Below, piece by piece: positions 3,159 through 13,599 of a DNA stretch of 26,651 nucleotides. Origin of the DNA: a virus; IMG/VR virus record IMGVR_UViG_3300035698_022952, positions 1 to 26,651 of that record; one strand, written 5' to 3'. Numbering within the stretch: position 1 is the stretch's first letter; every line of letters begins with the position of its first letter. The notes under the pieces were generated by a model, which had not been told where the DNA came from, did not search any database, and was given only the letters and a program-made list of their open reading frames with translations. Both the position numbers and the translations under genes were made by a program.

Positions 3159-3262
3159 TGCGCGTGCCCCCGAACCCCGAAGACGGCATTGAACGCTGGG
3201 AGTGGGTCATGCTTGGCGCGCTGGCGCTTCTGATGGTCCTCGCCGTTGCGGTGTCCCTATGA
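3158..3262 (+). CDS. 34-residue single-span membrane microprotein
   Basis: A short ORF of 34 codons. Its ATG shares a base with the upstream TGA (TGATG at 3156-3160) and its own TGA overlaps the ATG of the giant gene (ATGA at 3259-3262), so both junctions have the geometry of translational coupling. About residues 1-13 are hydrophilic (MRVPPNPEDGIER), a WEW aromatic belt follows, and residues 17-34 are a continuous apolar helix (VMLGALALLMVLAVAVSL). This predicts one transmembrane segment at the extreme C terminus. No function can be assigned. It could be a holin-like or ejection-channel accessory peptide, or mainly serve to couple translation of the giant gene. The overlaps and clean amphipathic layout argue it is real. 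Confidence 0.6.
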   Translation: MRVPPNPEDGIERWEWVMLGALALLMVLAVAVSL

Positions 3263-6200
3263 GCACGCAGGACGCGAAGGCGACGCAGGCCGGAGAGCTG
3301 GCGGCGCTTGAGGCCGAGCTGGACGCTGCAATGGCGGCGGACGCTCCGGCCGAGGGGCAGACCGTGAGCGGGTTCGACTTCCTGGCCGAGATGGACCCCG
3401 AGCTGGTCGAGTTCGCGGGCCAGGTGGCGCGAACGGAGCCGATCGGGTTCCGCGAGGCCGCGACCCACGAGTGGGCGCAGAAGGTGCCAGGGACGGGGCT
3501 CGTGTCGAGCATCCTCGACGCGAAGGGTCTCCTCGAGGCGGCGAAGGCGCTCCAGGACGGCGAGGCGACGCCCGAGCAGGTCGAGTCGATCATCGACGTC
3601 ATGAGCTGGACCGCGCGCGCCGAGAAGGGCGGCATGGGCTATTGGGCTGGCTCGATCCTCTCGGAGATGCCTGCTTACATGCTCGAGTTCGCGGCAACCG
3701 GCGGCGTGGCCGAGGTTGTCCGTGGGACGGCCGTGAAGGGCGCGAGCGCGGCGGCAAAGAAGGCGGTAGGGAAAGCGGTCGCGGGCGCCGTCGAGGGCGC
3801 GGCAGCGCGTGCTGCGACGTCGATGGCGGGCAAGCTGGCCTCGAAGGTCGGCGCAGGCAAGGTGTTGGGCGCGTCGCAGCGCGCGGCGATCCAGGCGGCA
3901 ATCGCCCCGAGCACGATCGCGCAAGCGTACGAGCGGATGCTCCCCGCGATGGGCTACGCCGAGGAGGCGAAGGGCGTCTCGCACGGTCTCGGGCTCGTGA
4001 TGGCGGGAACGGTGGACGACACGTGGGGCGCGATGCTTGAGGTGGCGCCTGCCGCCTGGGGCGACCAGTTCATCGAGTTCCTCTCGGAGCGCGGTGGCGA
4101 CCTCCCACCGCTGGCGCACCTGCACCGGCTGCAAGCGGCCGTGATGGCGAAGTGGCTCAAGCTTCGTCCGAGCAGCACGGTGGCGCAGTTCTCGGAGAAG
4201 GTGGCCTCGGAGGCTGGCTGGAACGGCGTGCTGGGCGAGATCGGCGAGGAGTCGCTCGGCGCGATCCTTCGCGCGTCGGTGGGGCTCGGCGAGTGGGATC
4301 AGGTCATCCCCGAGGGCGACCAGCTTGCGGGCATGTTCGTCGCGTTCTCGACGCTCCCAGTCGGCTCGGCGGCGCTTCAGAAGGGGCTCCAGGTGTGGTC
4401 GGAACCGCTCAAGATGGGAGACGGCACTGGGACGTTCGAGCCGGACGCGGACGAGCTGGCCGAGGCCGAAGCGGAGGCGGACGACTTCTTCGACGACGAC
4501 CTTGAGGACGGCGGGGGCGAGCCGATCGTCGACACGGGCGAGCTGGACCCGCCTGGCGTCGAGGCGGAGGCCGAGGCGGAGGCCGAGCCGGAGTTCGAGC
4601 CGGAGTTCGAGCCCGAGGCCCCCGAGGAGGCGCCGCCCGTCGTCGAGCCCGAGCTAGAGCTGGAGCCCGAGGTCGAGCCCGAGGTCGAGCCCGAGGCGAC
4701 GCGCGAGGCGACGCGCGAGGACGAACTGGAAGCGCTCGAGGATGAGCTGGACGCCGGGCTTGACGCCGGGCTTGACGGCGACGAGGACGCTCTCGCACCC
4801 GAGGACGAGGCACAAGCTGATGAGCCCGAGGGGGAGGACGTCTCGGAGCCGATTGAGATCGACGAAGCGCCCCCGTCAAGTGACGCACCACCGTCCGAAC
4901 CGTCCGAACCGTCCGACCGCCCGGCCGAGGAGGCCACCGAGGCCACCGAGGACGTTGAGGACGTTGAGGACGTTGAGGACGCTCCCGACGACGACCACGA
5001 GAGGGTCGCCAAGCACGTGCAATCGGCGCTCCTGGGGGGCACCGAGCGCGTACAGATGCGCGACGTTCGCGCGGCCTTCCCCGATCGGGACGCGAAGGCT
5101 CTCGAGGAGGCTGCGGAGGCTGGCGTGACGCGGGCCGCGCGGCAAATCTTCCAAGGGGTCGAGGAGGCCGACGACTTCGAGAGCGCGGAGGCCGAGGGCT
5201 TCGAGCGCGTGCTCGACCTCTACAAGCGCCAGCCGCGCTTCATCACGCGGACTTCGACCTCGTCGGAGCTTCAGCAGTATTCGACGCCGGCGCCCCTGGC
5301 GTGGATCGCAGGGCGGCTCGCGGGCTTGCACGGGAAGCTCCTGCCGTCGACGCGGCCGAAGGTGCTAGAGCCGACCGCAGGGAACGGGATGCTCCTCACG
5401 ACGGCGACCGAGAAGGCCGACTTCACGGTCAACGAGCTGTCCGAGGGACGGCTCGACGAGCTACGGCGTCGCGGCCTCAAAAACATCACGGCGCTCGACG
5501 CCACCGAGGCCACGTTCGAGCGCAAGTTCGACGCGGTCGTAGCGAACCCGCCTTTCGGGAAGGCTAGAGGGGAGCGCGGCGACGACACTCGGAAGCTCTC
5601 GGCGCCTGGCATGGTGCAAAGCACCGATCAGGGACACGTGATCGCGCTGCGGGCGCTCGACGGTCTCCGTGACGACGGCCGCGCCGTACTCATCCTCTCG
5701 GGCAAGAAGCACCTCGGGCGCGCTGACGCCGCAGAGACGGTCGAGAAGGGCAAATACAAGTCGAGGAACGATCGCGCCTTCTGGCGCGCGCTCCACGCGA
5801 ACTACAAGGTAGAGGACGTCTTCACGGTCGACGGCCGACTCTACGGGGGCCAAGGGGCAGCCTGGCCGGTGGACGTCGTCGTGATCGGCGGGCGCGGAAA
5901 GACCGAGGGCCGCGCCTGGCCGTGGGTCGAGCGTCCCGAGATCCTCACAACCTGGAAGGCGATTGATGAACGTACACGCGAACATGTGGAGCTGGTGTCC
6001 GCCCGGCAGGAGCCCGGTGATCGGCGCGGTCCAGATCCCAGCGGGGACGCAGATGGTGAGCCGCGAGAGGTACCGGACGGCGCTTCTGGAGAGGGTGGCG
6101 ACTCTTCTACGGGAGGCGGGGGAGGAGGGAATCGCGTACCTGGCGAGCGGCCCGTACGACCTAATCCCGATGCAGTTCCCGACTCCGACGGCGGGAGCGA

Positions 6201-9200
6201 GGGCGATTCTCGAGGAGCCAGCGATCGGGGATCAGACGCGACCTCCGGGGATTCGGTGGCCGGTGAAGGTAACGGCGTCGAATCGGATCGCGGAGAAAGC
6301 GATCAGGACGACGGATCTACAACAGTGGATCTTGAGCCTGGAGCCCTAGCTGACCTCCCGGACGGCGAGCAGATCGCAGACAAGATCCGGAAGCAGGAGG
6401 AGGCCCGGAAGGCGGCAACCGAGGCCCACGAAGACTCCGAGTTCCAGGTCGACTACGCGCCGCGGAGCAAGGCGTTGTCGGTCGGTACGAAGATGCCGAA
6501 GCAGCAGCTTCAGGCGCTCCAGAACGCGCTCACGCAGCTCGAGGCGCAAGTCGGCGGTGTCGACTCGTTCGTGCGGAAGAAGCTCGGCTACAAGTCGAAC
6601 GAGGCGCTCTTCAAGGCGTTCAGTGCCGAGCAGATCGACGCGATCGCGCTTTCGGTGTGGAACACCGACAACGGCGAGGCGCTGATCCTCGGGGACCAAA
6701 CGGGCGTCGGTAAAGGGCGCGTCGTCGCTGCCACGATCGTTTACGCGATCAAGAACAAGAAGATTCCCGTGTTCCTCACGGCGAAGCCGGGGCTCTACGT
6801 GGACATGGTCCGCGACCTCGTCGACATCGGGTTCCCGAACATCAAGATCCTGCCGACGAACAAGGATCTTCGCGGGAAGAAGGCGCTGCCGCTCGAGGGT
6901 GGCGAGAAGCTCGCATCGCTCAAGCCTTCCGAGTACGCCGCGGCGATGGAGTCGCTCTCGAAAGGCAAAATGCCCACGGGCTTCGATGTCATCTTTACAA
7001 CGTACGACCAGCAGACGCCGCGGGGCGCTCTCGCCGACTACCAGGCAGGGCTGGTCGGCGTCATCCCAAACGCCTTCTTGATCCTTGACGAGTCGCACGA
7101 AGCCGGGGGCGAGAAGGAGCCCGAGACCGACAAGGACGGGATCCTGAAGGAAAACCGCTCAACGTGGCTACGACGCCTCGTGCGGATGGCGGACTCCGTG
7201 CTCTACAGCTCGGCGACCTACGCGAAGAACCCCGACGTGATGAGCCTCTACATGAGGACAGGCATCTCGCGCGTCATCCAGAGCGGTGCCGAGCTTGCCG
7301 AGCTCCTGAAGAAAGGCGGGGTGCCGCTACAGCAAGTGATCTCGAACATGCTGGTCAAGGCCGGCCAGTACGTGCGGCGGGAGCGCACCTACGACGGGAT
7401 CAGCTTCGACATGATCGACGCGCCGACCGACGAGAAGCGCATGGGCGTCGTGACGGAGATGGTCGAAGGTCTCTTCCAGCTCGACCTCACGATGGACCAC
7501 GTGAGGACCGGCTACGCCGAGGCGGAAACGACCGGATCGGGCAGCGCGACGGCCCAGGACAGCGCTACGGGGTCGGCCGGCGCGGGGCAGTCGACGTTCT
7601 CGTCGGTGATGTACCACCTCGTCAATCAGGTGCTCTTGAGCGCCAAGGTCGACGGGGTCGTGGACCGCGCGATCAATGCGCACAAGCGCGGCGAGAAGCC
7701 CGTCATCGCCATCTCTAACACGAACGGCGCGCTCCTCACGGACTACACCGAAGCCCACGACATCGCTTTCGGCGAAAAGATCGAGGGCTTGGGGCTCAAC
7801 ACGGTTCTCGAGAACTACCTCCACAGGATGCGCACGGTCCGCGTCGTGGACCCCAACACCCGCGAGTCAGAAACGGTCTACCTTGATGACGCCGTGCTCG
7901 TTGGGTTGGGCTTCAAGAAGGAGCTCGACAGGTGGAACGAGCTACAGGCGAAGCTTCACGTTTCAAGCTTGGGGGAGCTCTCGGCAACGCCGATCGACAC
8001 GATCCTCTCGCGGCTCCGCGCCGCGGGAATCCGCATGGGCGAGCTCACGGGCCGCACCGAGCGCGTGGACGTCGACGCCGGCAACGTGTACGCGAAGCGC
8101 GAGCACAGCCAAGGCAACTCGAAGAGGACGATCCGTGACTTCCAAGAGGGCGAGCTCGACGGCCTGATCGTGAACCGCTCGGGTGCGACGGGCTACTCGA
8201 TGCACGCGAGCCGGCGCCCTGCCGACACGGACAAGCGACCGCGCGCAATGCTGATAGCCCAGGCGGAGCCCAACGTCGACACGTTCATGCAGATGCTCGG
8301 GCGGATCAACCGGACGGGCGAGGCGATCGGCGAGGACGGAAAGCCCGTCAAGCCGCGCTACGAGTTCCTCGTGACCGATCTTCCCGCGGAGCGCCGGCTG
8401 GCGTCGATGCACGAGGCCAAGATGGCGAGCCTCAACGCGCACACGACGAGCGCGCGGGCGGGCGCGGTGTCGGTCTCGGCCTCGGACTTCATGAACCCGA
8501 TCGGCGACGAGGTCATGTATTCGATCCTCTCCGAAGACGCCGCGCTCGCTCAACGGTTGGGGTACGGCGAGGTGGACGTCGGAACCGACGACGACGATCA
8601 TCACGCTCCGGAAGAGAAGAAGAAGGGGCCGAAGATCGGCACCCCCGAGAAGCCCAAGGAAGGACTCGCGCGCCAAGCGTCGGGTCGCTTCATGGTGCTG
8701 CGGCCCAAGGAGCAGGCCGAGCTCTACGAGCAAATCGACGCGATGTACGCCGAGGCGCTCCAGACGAGCAACACGTTGGGCTTCAACTCGCTCGAGGCAC
8801 AGGTGTTGGATCTCTCGGCCAAGCCGGCCGGAGAGTCGGTCGTCATCTTTGCCGAGCGGGAAGGGGATGGCCCGTTCTCCGAACAGGCGGTGGTCGAGAA
8901 GCTCGAGGTCAACAACCTTGACCCGCCGCCGTCGTACAAGGAGGTGCAGAAGAGCATCGCAAGCAAAGCGCGTGTCGTCGCCACGCCAGCGGACATCGCA
9001 CAAGCCTCCGAGACCGTCGAGGGCGCGCACAAGCACCTGATGGAGATGCTTGGGCGGTTCACCCCCCGGCCGGACGACGTCGAGGGACTTCGGACGTTCC
9101 GCGAGGCGATCGAGGAGAAGTTCACGTTTGGCGCCTCGCGCCTTCCCTTGGAGCTCACGCGGCCGAGCCATTGGGCGGACTACGAGGCTTTCAAGGCGAT

Positions 9201-12200
9201 CTACCATCGGATGCTTCGGGTGCTCACGGTGAACGCGGAAGAGGCCGGGGAGCTCGAGACGCAGGCCGAGAAGGACGCCGCAATGATCGAACGCCGCGCA
9301 GCGGAGGCGGAAGGGCGCGAGGTCAAGGGCGTCAAGGCGCCGAAGGCCGTCAAGGCCGCCGCGGCGATGACCAGAGCCGCGGTGCAGCAAGCCGAAGAGG
9401 CGGAAGAGGTGATTAGCGCCGTGTGGAAGCGCCTCAAGGTCGGGGAGCCGGTGCAGATCGGCTACCCGACCAAAGACCTCATCACGGACGAAGAGACGCG
9501 CTCCTTCGTGCCTGGCGTCGTTGTCAGCATGGAGTGGCGCCGGAAGCGCAAGAGCCCGTACGCCTTGAGCGATTGGGTCGTCGCGGTGCAGACGTCGGAC
9601 GCGAAGGCGCCGATCCACGTGCCGCTCTCGAAGCTCGCCCGTGGATGGTCGATCGACCCAGAGTCGGAGCGCTACGTGTCCGAGGCTTTTGATGCGAGAC
9701 GGAAGCCGCGCGAAATCCGCGAGGTGGGCACGGGGAACATCCTCGCAGCGTTCAAGGTGATGGGTGGCAAGGGCCAGATCGCGCACTTCACGCGCGCGGA
9801 CGGGACAACCGACTTCGGGGTCGTCTACGCGCGCGGGTTCAAGTCCCAGGAGGCGCTCGATGCGAATCCCGTCGTGCTCCAGGCCGGCCAGGTCGCCGAC
9901 TTCTTCGATCAGGTCGGGGACGCCCCCGCGGCGGTCTACTCGGGACCGCTCGCGATCACGCGCGACAGGGGCACCTACGTTCTTTCGGTCAGCGCGCGGA
10001 AGGGCAAGCCCTACTACCTCAACCGGAACGTGCGATCCCTCGTCGGCGACTTCACGCGCCGAGACGGCAAATGGACCGCACGCATTGATGACCCCATGAC
10101 GCTCCGGGTAGCGCTCGAGACGTGGGCGAACGAGATCCAGGCCGAATACACCGTTACGGCTAGTGGGCTCAAATACTACGCACGGGAGGCGGCAAGCACG
10201 AACGTAGCTGGCTCGCCCGTGGGCTCGCCAGCGCGCACACCGGGCTCGACGTCGGCGCGCGAGGGCGCGCTCAGGACTCACCGGCCGTCCGAGTTCCGTA
10301 GCACCGAGGACCGCATCGCAGATGGGCTCAGGGGCCGGCTGGCGAAGCCGCCGCGGGCGCCCAAGCGGGGACGTATCACGATCCCCGAAGTCATCGACAG
10401 CTACTCGCGCATCCTGCTCGCGGCCGGCGCCAACACGCCGATCCGCTTCGGGCACATGCGTGGGCGGAAGTACGCCGGCTACTTCATCGTGTCGCCCGAG
10501 CTCATCCGGGTGCGCGTGCGTAACGACATCCGCACCGCGGCGCACGAGGTAGCTCACGCGCTCGAGAAGGCCGTCTTCGGGTGGTCCAAGGGCGGACCGT
10601 GGCGTGCTCCGAGAACCTCCATACAGATGCGCCGCGAGCTCATGAAGCTGGGCCGCGCGCTCTACGGGCAAGAGAAGCCCGAGGGCGGGTACAGGCGCGA
10701 AGGCTGGGCCGAGTTCGTGCGAATGTGGATCACGGAGTCTGACCGCGGGCGCGCGGCGGCGCCGCACACCTTCCGCTGGCTCAACGACGTCTTCCTCGAG
10801 GCGCGTCCCGACGTCAAGCGCGAGATGTACGCGGCGCGCGAGGCGACGACGCTCTGGCGCAAGCAAGGCAGCCTGGCGCGCGGGCAGGCGCACGTTATCG
10901 AGCCGGGCACGTGGCGCTACCGCTACGAGAGGTTCCGCGAGAAGTGGACAAAGGACCGCACGCTGGGCTCGTTCCTCGACGCTCAGTGGTCGCTCGGGGA
11001 CCTCACGGCCCAGGTGGAGCGCCTCACGGGTAAACCGCTCGAGCCCTCCAAAGACCCCTTCATGCTCGCCCAGGCGACCAGAAAGCGCGCGGGGGCGATC
11101 GTCGAGCAGATGGTCGAGACGGGGATGCTCGACCTTGGCACGAACGTCGTCGGGCCGGCGCTCGCGGGAATCCGCAGCCTCGTCAAGAAGAACGAGCGCC
11201 ACGACTTCATCATCTACCTCCTCGCGCGCCGGACGCTGGCGCTCGCGGGGCACCCCGACTACGTCGCGTCGCACCTCATCACCACGGAGGGCATGGTGCC
11301 GTCGTTCAAGCCTCGGGACACAGGCATCAGCCTCCCGGACGCCGAGCAGATCATCAAGGAGCTCGACTCGGTCAGCTTCGGGGTCGCGGCGGACCGCGTC
11401 TACCGTTGGGCGGACGGGTTGCTTGACTACGCCGCGCAGGCGAGCCCGCAGTACGCGACGGTCGTGCGGCACATCAGGAAGGTCGACCCCGGCCAGTACG
11501 TGCCTCTCCAGCGCGAGTTCGATCGGATGATCGGCTCGTACAAGGGTGGCTCCGCGGCCGGTGGGAGCCCGGTGCAGCGGCTCAAGGGCTCGACGCGCCG
11601 GATCAAGGACCCCTTCCAGAGCCTCATCGCCAAGGCCGAGAAGATGGTCGCCATGAGCCATCAACGGATGGTGCTCGAGGCCGTGATGGAGCTCTCGAAG
11701 GTCGAGGGGATCGGCAAGTTCATCGAGGTCGTGCCGGTCTCCGAGGCGCCCGTGGCGGCGCGCACGGTCGAGGAGCTCATGCGCGAGCTCGAACGCACGA
11801 CGGGCCTGGAAGCGCGGCTCACGATCGAGGGGGGCGGGTGGGAGGGTCTCGCGCCGGACGAGGCCGGCCTCGTCTTCCGGGACTCGATCAAGTTCTTCGC
11901 GCCGGTGTGGCAGCCGAAGGGGGACGAACCGATCTTCCCGATGATCGACAAGGTGGGAAAGATCAAGTGGATCCGCGTCAAGGACGTCAACTTGCTCGAG
12001 GCTCTGCACGAGATGAACGTGTACGAGCTCAACCCGTTTCTGAACGCGACGCTCGGGGCCAACGCGCGCATGTTCCGGCTCGGGACGACCGGACTCCGGG
12101 CCAGCTTTGGGCTCGTGACGAACCCGCAGCGGGACATCGTGACGGCGCTCCTCAACAGCCGCGCGTCGGCCAACTCGGGCCAAATGTTCCTTCAGATTAT

Positions 12201-13599
12201 GCGGATGCTCTTTCACGCGGGGCTCCACGCGGCAACGGGCGAGGCGCACGACCCGGCGCTGCGCGCGTACCTCCAAATGGGCGGTGAGCTGGTGCAGAGC
12301 ATGGGGCAGGACACGGCCCACGTGCATCGCGCGAGCCGGCGCCTCTTCGAGTCCAAGAAGGAGCGCGCGCTCGACGCTCGCAACTGGATCGACGTCATGC
12401 GGTCGGTGCTCCAGATTCCCGAGGTCGCGGTCCGTGCGGCCGAGGTCAAGATGGTGGGGCGCGACATCGGCTGGACGCCGGGGGAGGATCTGACGCTCGA
12501 TCAGCGCATCCGGCTCTCGACAGCGGGCGCGACAGTGACGACCGACTTCACACGCCAAGGGGCTATCTCGGCCCTCATCAACCGGATGGTGCCGTTCCAC
12601 ACGGCTTCGATCTCGGGCAAGATCGACCACTGGAACGCCTACAAGCGGAACCCGGTCAAGTTTCTCATCCGGGTGGTCTCGAGCCTCACGGTCCCGTCGC
12701 TGATCTCCTACGCCTTCTTCCACGACGAGGAGTGGTTCGAGGAGATGGACGCTTCGGAGCGGGCGCTCTACTTGCTGATTCCCGTTCCTGGGACGAACGA
12801 GGTTTTGAAGATCCCACGCCCGCACGAAGTCGGCGTGCTTTTCGGTGGTCTCCCGATCGCCTTGCTTGACGCCTGGAAGTACCAGGATCCCGCCGCGGCG
12901 ACGCAATGGCTCAACGAGTTCAAGGAGGCGCTCGAGGCGCCGCTCGTGCCGCCCCTGGCCGAGACGTCGCTCGAGCTCGCGGCCAACTACGACTGGTTCT
13001 TCGACCGGCCGATCGTGCCGGCGCGCGAGCAGCGGCTCCCGAAGGCCGAGCAGCACGGCGCGTACACCGCGGGGCTCGCAGTGTGGGCCGGCGAGGTCTT
13101 AGGCCAGAGCCCGCGGAAGATCGAGCACGCGATCGGCGGCATGTTCGGCGGGGTCGCGCTCGACCTGCTGCACGGGCTCGACTTCGGCGGCACGGGGAGC
13201 AAGGACGTACGGAACCCCGAGGCGGCGGACTTCCCGGTGTTCGGACGCGCGTTCCGGCGCGGCGGGGCGACGATCACCAGATCGAAGTCCATCGACGCGC
13301 TCTACGAGACGCTCGACTTCGCCCAGCTCAGGAGCAACAGCCGGAGGCACGAGGAAACGCCGGCCGAGCGCCAGCAGCGTCTTCAGCTCGAGGACGCGAC
13401 GAGGGCGCTAACAAAAATGGGCCAAATGCGCTCGACGGAGCCCAAGCGGTCGGTTCGCGCGCTGATGAGTCGTAAGATGGCGCAACTCGCCAAGGACGCG
13501 GTAAGCGACTTTGAAGCAGGCCGCCTGCGCCGCGAGTTCTACCGATTCCAGCGACAACGGGCCGAACGCGACCTCGATCTCCGCGAGAAGCGAGAATGA
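3259..13599 (+). CDS. Giant polyvalent protein: DarB-like methyltransferase + Strawberry-notch helicase + metallopeptidase + LPD38-like
   Basis: 3446 residues from ATG 3259. This start is preferred over an in-frame ATG at 3202 because it forms an ATGA overlap with the microprotein gene. Order: Ala-rich helical region with apolar stretches (about 30-390); acidic Glu/Asp/Pro repeats (about 394-588); adenine methyltransferase (about 660-900) with QYSTP, motif I VLEPTAGNG at 702 and catalytic NPPF at 763-766; low-complexity linker; SF2 helicase of Strawberry-notch/DarB type (about 1090-2300) with Walker A GDQTGVGKG (Lys1152), DESH at 1277, SAT at 1318 and QMLGRINRTG at 1678; zinc peptidase HEVAH at 2429-2433 with likely third ligand Glu2485 in GWAEF; and a long C-terminal LPD38-like region (about 2850-3350) containing TNPQRD at 2954. 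P1 DarB is injected and protects DNA from type I restriction. A role in the virion with delivery into the host is inferred. All catalytic motifs look intact. Confidence 0.9.
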   Translation: MSTQDAKATQAGELAALEAELDAAMAADAPAEGQTVSGFDFLAEMDPELVEFAGQVARTEPIGFREAATHEWAQKVPGTGLVSSILDAKGLLEAAKALQDGEATPEQVESIIDVMSWTARAEKGGMGYWAGSILSEMPAYMLEFAATGGVAEVVRGTAVKGASAAAKKAVGKAVAGAVEGAAARAATSMAGKLASKVGAGKVLGASQRAAIQAAIAPSTIAQAYERMLPAMGYAEEAKGVSHGLGLVMAGTVDDTWGAMLEVAPAAWGDQFIEFLSERGGDLPPLAHLHRLQAAVMAKWLKLRPSSTVAQFSEKVASEAGWNGVLGEIGEESLGAILRASVGLGEWDQVIPEGDQLAGMFVAFSTLPVGSAALQKGLQVWSEPLKMGDGTGTFEPDADELAEAEAEADDFFDDDLEDGGGEPIVDTGELDPPGVEAEAEAEAEPEFEPEFEPEAPEEAPPVVEPELELEPEVEPEVEPEATREATREDELEALEDELDAGLDAGLDGDEDALAPEDEAQADEPEGEDVSEPIEIDEAPPSSDAPPSEPSEPSDRPAEEATEATEDVEDVEDVEDAPDDDHERVAKHVQSALLGGTERVQMRDVRAAFPDRDAKALEEAAEAGVTRAARQIFQGVEEADDFESAEAEGFERVLDLYKRQPRFITRTSTSSELQQYSTPAPLAWIAGRLAGLHGKLLPSTRPKVLEPTAGNGMLLTTATEKADFTVNELSEGRLDELRRRGLKNITALDATEATFERKFDAVVANPPFGKARGERGDDTRKLSAPGMVQSTDQGHVIALRALDGLRDDGRAVLILSGKKHLGRADAAETVEKGKYKSRNDRAFWRALHANYKVEDVFTVDGRLYGGQGAAWPVDVVVIGGRGKTEGRAWPWVERPEILTTWKAIDERTREHVELVSARQEPGDRRGPDPSGDADGEPREVPDGASGEGGDSSTGGGGGGNRVPGERPVRPNPDAVPDSDGGSEGDSRGASDRGSDATSGDSVAGEGNGVESDRGESDQDDGSTTVDLEPGALADLPDGEQIADKIRKQEEARKAATEAHEDSEFQVDYAPRSKALSVGTKMPKQQLQALQNALTQLEAQVGGVDSFVRKKLGYKSNEALFKAFSAEQIDAIALSVWNTDNGEALILGDQTGVGKGRVVAATIVYAIKNKKIPVFLTAKPGLYVDMVRDLVDIGFPNIKILPTNKDLRGKKALPLEGGEKLASLKPSEYAAAMESLSKGKMPTGFDVIFTTYDQQTPRGALADYQAGLVGVIPNAFLILDESHEAGGEKEPETDKDGILKENRSTWLRRLVRMADSVLYSSATYAKNPDVMSLYMRTGISRVIQSGAELAELLKKGGVPLQQVISNMLVKAGQYVRRERTYDGISFDMIDAPTDEKRMGVVTEMVEGLFQLDLTMDHVRTGYAEAETTGSGSATAQDSATGSAGAGQSTFSSVMYHLVNQVLLSAKVDGVVDRAINAHKRGEKPVIAISNTNGALLTDYTEAHDIAFGEKIEGLGLNTVLENYLHRMRTVRVVDPNTRESETVYLDDAVLVGLGFKKELDRWNELQAKLHVSSLGELSATPIDTILSRLRAAGIRMGELTGRTERVDVDAGNVYAKREHSQGNSKRTIRDFQEGELDGLIVNRSGATGYSMHASRRPADTDKRPRAMLIAQAEPNVDTFMQMLGRINRTGEAIGEDGKPVKPRYEFLVTDLPAERRLASMHEAKMASLNAHTTSARAGAVSVSASDFMNPIGDEVMYSILSEDAALAQRLGYGEVDVGTDDDDHHAPEEKKKGPKIGTPEKPKEGLARQASGRFMVLRPKEQAELYEQIDAMYAEALQTSNTLGFNSLEAQVLDLSAKPAGESVVIFAEREGDGPFSEQAVVEKLEVNNLDPPPSYKEVQKSIASKARVVATPADIAQASETVEGAHKHLMEMLGRFTPRPDDVEGLRTFREAIEEKFTFGASRLPLELTRPSHWADYEAFKAIYHRMLRVLTVNAEEAGELETQAEKDAAMIERRAAEAEGREVKGVKAPKAVKAAAAMTRAAVQQAEEAEEVISAVWKRLKVGEPVQIGYPTKDLITDEETRSFVPGVVVSMEWRRKRKSPYALSDWVVAVQTSDAKAPIHVPLSKLARGWSIDPESERYVSEAFDARRKPREIREVGTGNILAAFKVMGGKGQIAHFTRADGTTDFGVVYARGFKSQEALDANPVVLQAGQVADFFDQVGDAPAAVYSGPLAITRDRGTYVLSVSARKGKPYYLNRNVRSLVGDFTRRDGKWTARIDDPMTLRVALETWANEIQAEYTVTASGLKYYAREAASTNVAGSPVGSPARTPGSTSAREGALRTHRPSEFRSTEDRIADGLRGRLAKPPRAPKRGRITIPEVIDSYSRILLAAGANTPIRFGHMRGRKYAGYFIVSPELIRVRVRNDIRTAAHEVAHALEKAVFGWSKGGPWRAPRTSIQMRRELMKLGRALYGQEKPEGGYRREGWAEFVRMWITESDRGRAAAPHTFRWLNDVFLEARPDVKREMYAAREATTLWRKQGSLARGQAHVIEPGTWRYRYERFREKWTKDRTLGSFLDAQWSLGDLTAQVERLTGKPLEPSKDPFMLAQATRKRAGAIVEQMVETGMLDLGTNVVGPALAGIRSLVKKNERHDFIIYLLARRTLALAGHPDYVASHLITTEGMVPSFKPRDTGISLPDAEQIIKELDSVSFGVAADRVYRWADGLLDYAAQASPQYATVVRHIRKVDPGQYVPLQREFDRMIGSYKGGSAAGGSPVQRLKGSTRRIKDPFQSLIAKAEKMVAMSHQRMVLEAVMELSKVEGIGKFIEVVPVSEAPVAARTVEELMRELERTTGLEARLTIEGGGWEGLAPDEAGLVFRDSIKFFAPVWQPKGDEPIFPMIDKVGKIKWIRVKDVNLLEALHEMNVYELNPFLNATLGANARMFRLGTTGLRASFGLVTNPQRDIVTALLNSRASANSGQMFLQIMRMLFHAGLHAATGEAHDPALRAYLQMGGELVQSMGQDTAHVHRASRRLFESKKERALDARNWIDVMRSVLQIPEVAVRAAEVKMVGRDIGWTPGEDLTLDQRIRLSTAGATVTTDFTRQGAISALINRMVPFHTASISGKIDHWNAYKRNPVKFLIRVVSSLTVPSLISYAFFHDEEWFEEMDASERALYLLIPVPGTNEVLKIPRPHEVGVLFGGLPIALLDAWKYQDPAAATQWLNEFKEALEAPLVPPLAETSLELAANYDWFFDRPIVPAREQRLPKAEQHGAYTAGLAVWAGEVLGQSPRKIEHAIGGMFGGVALDLLHGLDFGGTGSKDVRNPEAADFPVFGRAFRRGGATITRSKSIDALYETLDFAQLRSNSRRHEETPAERQQRLQLEDATRALTKMGQMRSTEPKRSVRALMSRKMAQLAKDAVSDFEAGRLRREFYRFQRQRAERDLDLREKRE
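4438..5004 (+). repeat. Acidic in-frame tandem repeats inside giant gene
   Basis: Short direct repeats, mostly of 6, 9 or 12 bases, all multiples of three, so the frame is kept. Visible units include FEPE-type and EVEP-type repeats (about 4591-4692), a 12-base unit encoding ATRE twice (about 4696-4719), a 12-base unit encoding DAGL twice (about 4750-4773), a 9-base unit encoding SEP repeats near 4891-4916 and a 9-base unit encoding EDV three times (about 4952-4980). The product is a disordered polyanionic spacer between the N-terminal helical region and the methyltransferase. Slippage or unequal recombination probably varies its length between relatives. Confidence 0.8.
5954..5959 (+). promoter_or_regulatory. 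Shine-Dalgarno for the nested ORF
   Basis: GGAAGG lies six bases upstream of ATG 5966, a near-ideal ribosome site inside the giant coding frame. In the giant frame these bases are part of ordinary Trp-Lys-Ala codons, so chance is possible. The site is better than those of several accepted genes in this window, and it favours ATG 5966 over the adjacent TTG at 5963. Confidence 0.5.
5966..6349 (+). CDS. Nested 127-residue protein overlapping the giant gene in another frame
   Basis: An ORF wholly inside the giant gene, shifted by one base, over the linker joining methyltransferase and helicase. By hand count about 82% of its codons end in G or C, against about 54% for the giant frame across the same bases; the giant frame's usual high GC3 returns on both sides. 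So codon constraint switches frame close to this ORF's start and stop. The product has balanced composition: a Trp/Pro N terminus (MWSWCPPG), an amphipathic helix (ERYRTALLERVATLLREAG), then AYLASGPYDLIPMQFP and a helical C terminus ending QQWILSLEP. The giant frame here is Gly/Asp/Ser/Glu-rich and disordered. No signal peptide or membrane segment. I do not recognise the family. It may be a co-expressed partner or regulator of the giant protein, or a formerly separate gene engulfed by a fusion. Confidence 0.6.
   Translation: MNVHANMWSWCPPGRSPVIGAVQIPAGTQMVSRERYRTALLERVATLLREAGEEGIAYLASGPYDLIPMQFPTPTAGARAILEEPAIGDQTRPPGIRWPVKVTASNRIAEKAIRTTDLQQWILSLEP

Follow-up and report, generated by a model that had tools for sequence, protein, structure and literature searches.

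Evidence for a conserved gene nested out of frame between the methyltransferase and helicase domains of giant polyvalent proteins

Can the DNA that links two enzymatic domains of a giant protein also encode a second, separately constrained protein? This question is raised by a 26,651-nt virus fragment from IMG/VR (record IMGVR_UViG_3300035698_022952; hereafter the window, i.e. the whole stretch that was analysed), in which a 3466-codon gene encodes an adenine methyltransferase followed by a strawberry-notch-type helicase. An original prediction, made from the sequence alone, had placed a 127-codon open reading frame (ORF) at 5966-6349, out of frame with the giant gene and with GGAAGG six bases before its ATG; a recount agrees on all of these points. 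Comparative sequence analysis now indicates that this ORF is, with near certainty, a real conserved protein-coding gene nested in the methyltransferase–helicase linker. The explanation that we favour as a whole—a nested gene, translated from an internal start, whose product is a partner of the methyltransferase–helicase—is probable.

The length of the ORF is in itself no evidence for a gene, since the +1 frame stays equally open when the giant protein is recoded synonymously (p = 0.25-0.66). The original prediction had itself cautioned that long open frames are common by chance. What the giant protein is unable to explain is the collapse of its own G+C content at third codon positions (GC3) and the family membership of the nested product. 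A hidden Markov model (HMM) built from 72 relatives, with the window sequence excluded, was run against the 323 six-frame segments into which the window divides and matched the nested ORF alone (60.9 bits, E = 3.5e-18), and in synonymous recodings of the giant (2 x 3000) the best score was 18.7 bits, compared with 61.8 for the real ORF. G+C content at the three codon positions is 0.61/0.54/0.82 in the nested frame and 0.82/0.61/0.53 in the giant frame over the same bases, matching the hand counts of 82% and about 54% G/C-ending codons made earlier, with the nested GC3 of 0.82 largely owed to giant codons being rich in G at their first position. When GC3 is computed over 384 nt at a time along the entire giant gene, its lowest value, 0.53, falls in stretches that start at 5959-5968; the mean for the gene is 0.87, and the next independent low is 0.78. 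A change-point search of the giant third positions, unsupervised and blind to the ORF, returned 5962-6351 (GC3 0.52)—the nested ORF to within one codon—with a log-likelihood ratio of 48, whereas 20 permutations gave 11.8 at most, so that the predicted switch of codon signature at the ORF ends is borne out.

Selection was read from 23 independent pairs of relatives, with each difference classed by its effect in both frames and based on raw substitution counts that carry no correction for multiple hits. For the 11 closest pairs, omega (dN/dS) in the overlap was 0.36 (0.27-0.47) for the nested frame and 0.81 (0.63-1.02) for the giant frame, whereas in the methyltransferase and helicase flanks the giant frame gave 0.29 and 0.17 and a pseudo-nested control 0.88 and 1.23. 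The result is unchanged whether the alignment is guided by the nested or the giant frame. The overlap-aware dN/dS check proposed with the original prediction hence finds purifying selection in the nested frame and a giant frame that is relaxed there. In 54 GC-rich relatives, giant GC3 is 0.80 in the flanks versus 0.43 in the overlap. The giant frame is kept free of stops all the same: across 108 overlaps, none was observed, although synonymous shuffling of the nested codons predicts about 174; in the third frame of the same overlaps, the 1168 stops seen are close to the 1139 expected. As judged from these substitution and stop patterns, it is the product of the nested gene that is constrained, and the giant linker is a permissive by-product. 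A giant-frame ATG or GTG lies near the nested stop in only 17 of 137 cases, so the helicase would mostly depend on read-through of the giant frame; a three-cistron model with helicase restart was rejected on the same count. A frameshift origin of the nested product was also discarded: the +1 frame has a stop at most 10 codons upstream of the start in 83 of 108 cases, and no frameshift is needed because nearly all nested genes carry their own ATG.

How widespread is this arrangement? Direct look-ups with the nested or the giant protein in IMG/VR, genome contigs, phages and plasmids returned no relatives, because the sequences have diverged too far. Relatives were collected via alignments of the conserved flanking helicase and methyltransferase domains, and a homologous +1-frame gene was found in the same linker in approximately 110 distinct IMG/VR contigs as well as on plasmids and chromosomes, including genomes of Cyanobacteria, Alphaproteobacteria, Desulfovibrio and others. 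Carriers include Picosynechococcus PCC 7002 (plasmid pAQ6), 7003 and 7117, Chroococcidiopsis, Thalassospira, Bacteroides phage BS-TP4, Desulfovibrio, Paracoccus, Prevotella and two Vibrio genomes; the Vibrio, Bacteroidales and a few other copies lie beyond profile detection and were assigned by position, frame and mutual similarity. Almost every one of the approximately 110 viral loci has a giant frame that runs without a stop between methyltransferase and helicase, together with a +1 frame open for around 90-190 codons and a +2 frame that is usually rich in stops. The nested start falls a median of 14 nt past the end of methyltransferase homology, the start codon is ATG in 100 of 107 genes, and about half have AGGAG at 7 nt upstream. 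Overall, AGGAG or GGAGG lies 5-10 nt before the ATG in 65 of 101 nested genes (64%), as opposed to 8 of 2469 control out-of-frame ATGs of the same genes (0.3%). The nested gene occupies a median of 92% of the linker. Nowhere in the clade to which the window belongs was a relative seen to keep the linker and lose the nested frame, the pattern that the original prediction had named as evidence against itself.

One copy has already entered the databases. RefSeq PGAP annotates the nested gene of the Gloeobacter morelensis plasmid pGMOR1 (WP_230844304.1, a prediction only; locus L002, 3222-3671), and as a consequence the helicase coding sequence starts at 3668 and the methyltransferase half of an intact 1961-aa frame is left unannotated. 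The copy of Picosynechococcus PCC 7002, a tractable laboratory strain, lies on the complementary strand of plasmid pAQ6 (NC_010480.1, about 100507-101013), within SYNPCC7002_RS15125. Several loci show further variation. Nodosilinea sp. LEGE 07298 (L175) has five copies of the methyltransferase–helicase dyad in one genome, each with its own nested gene. In Vibrio sp. MEBiC08052 and V. ruber (L207, L210), the dyad lies on large genomic scaffolds and the divergent nested genes are closely alike. Linkers of 1-1.8 kb with extra in-frame giant sequence after the nested gene occur at L015, L022, L024, L031 and L083, and the linker of L022 additionally has a 179-codon open +2 frame.

The nested proteins come in two types, a long one of about 130 aa with an N-terminal W-x-P motif (A3) and a short one of about 95 aa (A4), which are related (hhalign E 1.1e-7 over 67 columns). 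Iterated searches from an A3 or an A4 seed converge on a mostly common set of 131 and 101 members, respectively, and the iterated profile matches 0 of 49 decoy +2-frame sequences and no reversed sequence. With input rows from IMG/VR only, AlphaFold models the nested protein of the window with a pLDDT of 89.3 and a pTM of 0.83, and a second family model reaches 90.7/0.82. Neither model matches a structure in the PDB, and that of the window has no match in BFVD. The family matches no profile library searched, and no nuclease family, HNH or other, was found among Pfam, PHROG, NCBIfam and PADLOC matches. A virion-protein match (PHROG_21641, E 0.009 over 29 residues) is not common to the other 72 members and was taken as chance, and TorD-like (TtrD) fold matches of the short type were weak (probability about 0.1) and were not used. 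Most nested proteins are acidic (median pI 4.5), with a median net charge of -8 (range -15 to +2; window +1).

To look for stand-alone copies, a check proposed with the original prediction, profiles were run against 24 chosen dyad-bearing genomes, 292 cyanobacterial and 385 alphaproteobacterial genomes. The matches lie at 29 distinct places; all of the 27 that were inspected sit in a methyltransferase–helicase linker with an open giant frame, of the remaining two, one offered no locus for inspection and the other is a weak stray match (L279, 20 bits). At the sensitivity of these searches, no stand-alone homologue was found in the roughly 700 genomes, in IMG/VR or among the phages and plasmids; the 292- and 385-genome runs scored only the best candidates per genome, which a very divergent stand-alone copy could escape. 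The A4 profile had no match in Alphaproteobacteria, a set without a positive control. As far as these searches reach, the nested family thus appears to occur only in this linker position. Its presence and absence takes two changes on a 157-row helicase tree, and the distances of nested proteins follow those of the helicases (r = 0.90; permutation maximum 0.34). Relatives lacking the nested gene come chiefly from Bacteroidota chromosomes, and the majority of these have a linker of 138-204 nt; the gene is also absent from some gammaproteobacterial, betaproteobacterial and Acinetobacter dyads.

These relatives bear on how the arrangement arose. The original prediction had offered a small gene swallowed when methyltransferase and helicase fused, or a new protein that arose by overprinting within a disordered linker. 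The former is not demonstrated, for the relatives without the nested gene are fused too and no three-gene intermediate (methyltransferase, small gene, helicase) was found; the latter is unsupported, because the gene is old, widespread and fills nearly all of the linker, and the frame that evolves almost freely is that of the giant. The nested gene may have become enclosed when stops were lost in a methyltransferase–small gene–helicase operon, but it is no less likely to have inserted at the junction of a dyad that was fused beforehand, because relatives without it are also fused, usually through such short linkers.

What might the product do? Some ribosomes on the giant mRNA would translate the whole giant frame, and others, as we infer from the sequence, would initiate internally exactly at the end of the methyltransferase domain to yield a folded protein of 95-170 residues. 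Since the giant frame stays free of stops through the overlap, methyltransferase and helicase would remain joined, and the near freedom of the giant-frame residues would make the connection a flexible tether rich in Gly, Pro, Arg and Asp. The small protein would be produced beside the nascent giant, from the same message, and could serve as an obligate accessory subunit or a dedicated chaperone or regulator of the methyltransferase–helicase. That it is a physical or functional partner of the giant we regard, from its sequence context, as somewhat better than an even bet. Partner, inhibitor and anti-defence protein had all been considered conceivable at the outset; a dedicated partner fits better because the nested gene was never found without the giant, while anti-defence specifically is unsupported. 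DarB-like dyads have been proposed to modify or protect DNA on entry (PMC5512222), the virion-borne protective function being that of DarB of phage P1, and a third subunit, chaperone or keep-quiet factor of a DNA-protecting dyad would fit, whereas a role in virion packaging alone would be insufficient because plasmids also retain the nested gene. Some observations weigh against the favoured explanation: co-inheritance is partly forced by nesting, and an unrelated passenger would give a mirror-tree correlation too; median identity is 22% for the nested protein and 44% for the helicase, a faster divergence than is usual for a core enzyme subunit; and the ribosome site of the window, GGAAGG, is weaker than the family norm, mostly AGGAG at 7 nt.

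Other readings have to be set against a partner role. The nested protein could act alone, for instance in anti-defence or host takeover, and be nested merely for co-expression with the giant. The giants are indeed DarB-like conflict proteins (PMC5512222), and acidic, fast-diverging products are what inhibitors often look like; yet the searches described above returned no stand-alone homologue, plasmids and chromosomes retain the gene too, and the charge is modest, unlike that of a DNA mimic such as Ocr. We consider this reading unlikely. An Ocr/ArdA-like antirestriction protein was itself rejected as a candidate, its charge being too low and family or fold matches absent. Translation of the nested frame could instead be regulatory, adjusting the flow of ribosomes, a restart at the helicase or the folding of the two giant domains during their synthesis, with the peptide incidental. 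The position exactly at a domain boundary speaks for this, as do a few relatives (e.g. Gloeobacter and Thalassospira) in which the nested stop overlaps a giant-frame ATG, but it is hard to reconcile with purifying selection on the nested residues, their conserved motif and confident predicted fold, or with the rarity of nearby giant-frame restart codons, so that we think it improbable.

A selfish out-of-frame insertion element would share its architecture with the hidden HNH endonucleases of mycobacteriophage methylases, in which a stop-free, out-of-frame gene lies within a phage DNA methylase gene (ShiLan domain; PMC11855218). Here, however, there is no HNH or other nuclease match, a strong ribosome site is present where ShiLan has none, and the distribution tracks the host-gene tree instead of being patchy, which largely refutes this idea and leaves it very improbable. 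A chance open frame, arising because the giant linker is rich in Gly, Asp and Ser and the DNA in G+C, would account for the openness of the ORF, as the recodings of similar +1 length illustrate, but not for the family membership of its product, selection in the nested frame, the collapse of synonymous change in the giant, the ribosome site or conservation in AT-rich relatives; it is refuted by the omega test and the leave-window-out profile and recoding test, and its probability is negligible. A nested gene encoding a dedicated partner thus remains the interpretation that we favour.

Out-of-frame nested genes are already known as a kind. In Bacillus subtilis, comS encodes a small regulatory protein out of frame inside the giant multidomain gene srfAB; it lies in a coding domain and is not known to be widely distributed, while the gene described here takes up practically all of the linker and is shared by several phyla. 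Rz1/Rz and phiX174 E/D are same-strand, out-of-frame nested phage lysis genes with their own ribosome sites; unlike them, the present family has no match in the profile libraries and is not limited to phages. The nearest case is the ShiLan domain, a hidden HNH homing endonuclease in mycobacteriophage DNA methylases that is patchy, actively homing and without a detectable ribosome site (PMC11855218). Both are out-of-frame genes in a phage DNA methylase gene whose host frame is kept open, but they differ in product, mobility and distribution: the nested gene lies between two domains, follows the host-gene tree with a strong ribosome site and no nuclease match, and spans phages, plasmids and chromosomes.

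The giant protein itself is homologous to plasmid and phage methyltransferase–helicase dyads and matches AAA_34 (1.8e-20), Helicase_C_4 (1.9e-13) and LPD38 (1.4e-29). With an adenine methyltransferase followed by a superfamily 2 (SF2) helicase of the SWI2/SNF2-like (strawberry-notch) kind in one polypeptide with LPD domains, it is a member of the DarB-like dyad of polyvalent proteins; the searched passages of the survey that describes these mention no nested gene or separately translated third component (PMC5512222). Its start is likelier to be the ATG at 3259 (MSTQDAKATQ) than the listed GTG at 3202. At 4400-5000, the protein consists of acidic Glu/Pro/Asp repeats and GC3 is second-lowest (0.78). 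A 1697-codon antisense ORF (7963-13056, minus strand), whose codons are exactly in register with those of the giant gene, follows from codon usage and gives no evidence of a gene, because its stops would need giant TTA, CTA or TCA codons, of which there are only 14 in 3466. Downstream, minus-strand ORFs match portal and head-closure/tail PHROGs.

Table 1. Coordinates of the giant gene, its regions and the nested gene in the window
Feature	Position	Strand	Basis or state
Giant host gene, polyvalent protein (adenine methyltransferase, strawberry-notch helicase, LPD38)	3202..13599	+	ORF and domain matches
N6-adenine methyltransferase region of the giant protein (NPPF motif)	5206..5964	+	terminates where the nested gene starts
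Shine-Dalgarno-like GGAAGG, 6 nt before the nested ATG	5954..5959	+	sequence
Giant-frame linker, Gly/Asp/Ser/Arg-rich, few hydrophobic residues	5965..6384 (limits approximate)	+	open; residue identity nearly unconstrained
Nested gene, 127 codons + TAG, in the +1 frame of the giant; small globular product (predicted), conserved W10, P12, L40, R43	5966..6349	+	ORF, leave-window-out HMM, AlphaFold
Strawberry-notch-type SF2 helicase region (AAA_34 + Helicase_C_4) of the giant protein	6430..8605	+	family matches

In bacteria and phages, few out-of-frame genes are both long and deeply conserved, and those few are disputed; no report of this family was found in the open-access literature searched, whose coverage leaves out most subscription journals and preprints. 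The strength of the present case lies in about 110 distinct contigs, frame-switching selection with flank controls, a ribosome site and a confident predicted fold. On an evenly balanced judgement, a family without detectable relatives or known fold that occurs only out of frame in another gene may be the overlooked third component of the methyltransferase/strawberry-notch-helicase DNA-protection machine, with the linker a coding by-product. Standard annotation, which assigns one gene per stretch, overlooks the nested gene and with it, if the partner role is right, part of a DNA-modification system that is widespread. The locus is a clear case in which the host frame, rather than the nested one, is the free rider.

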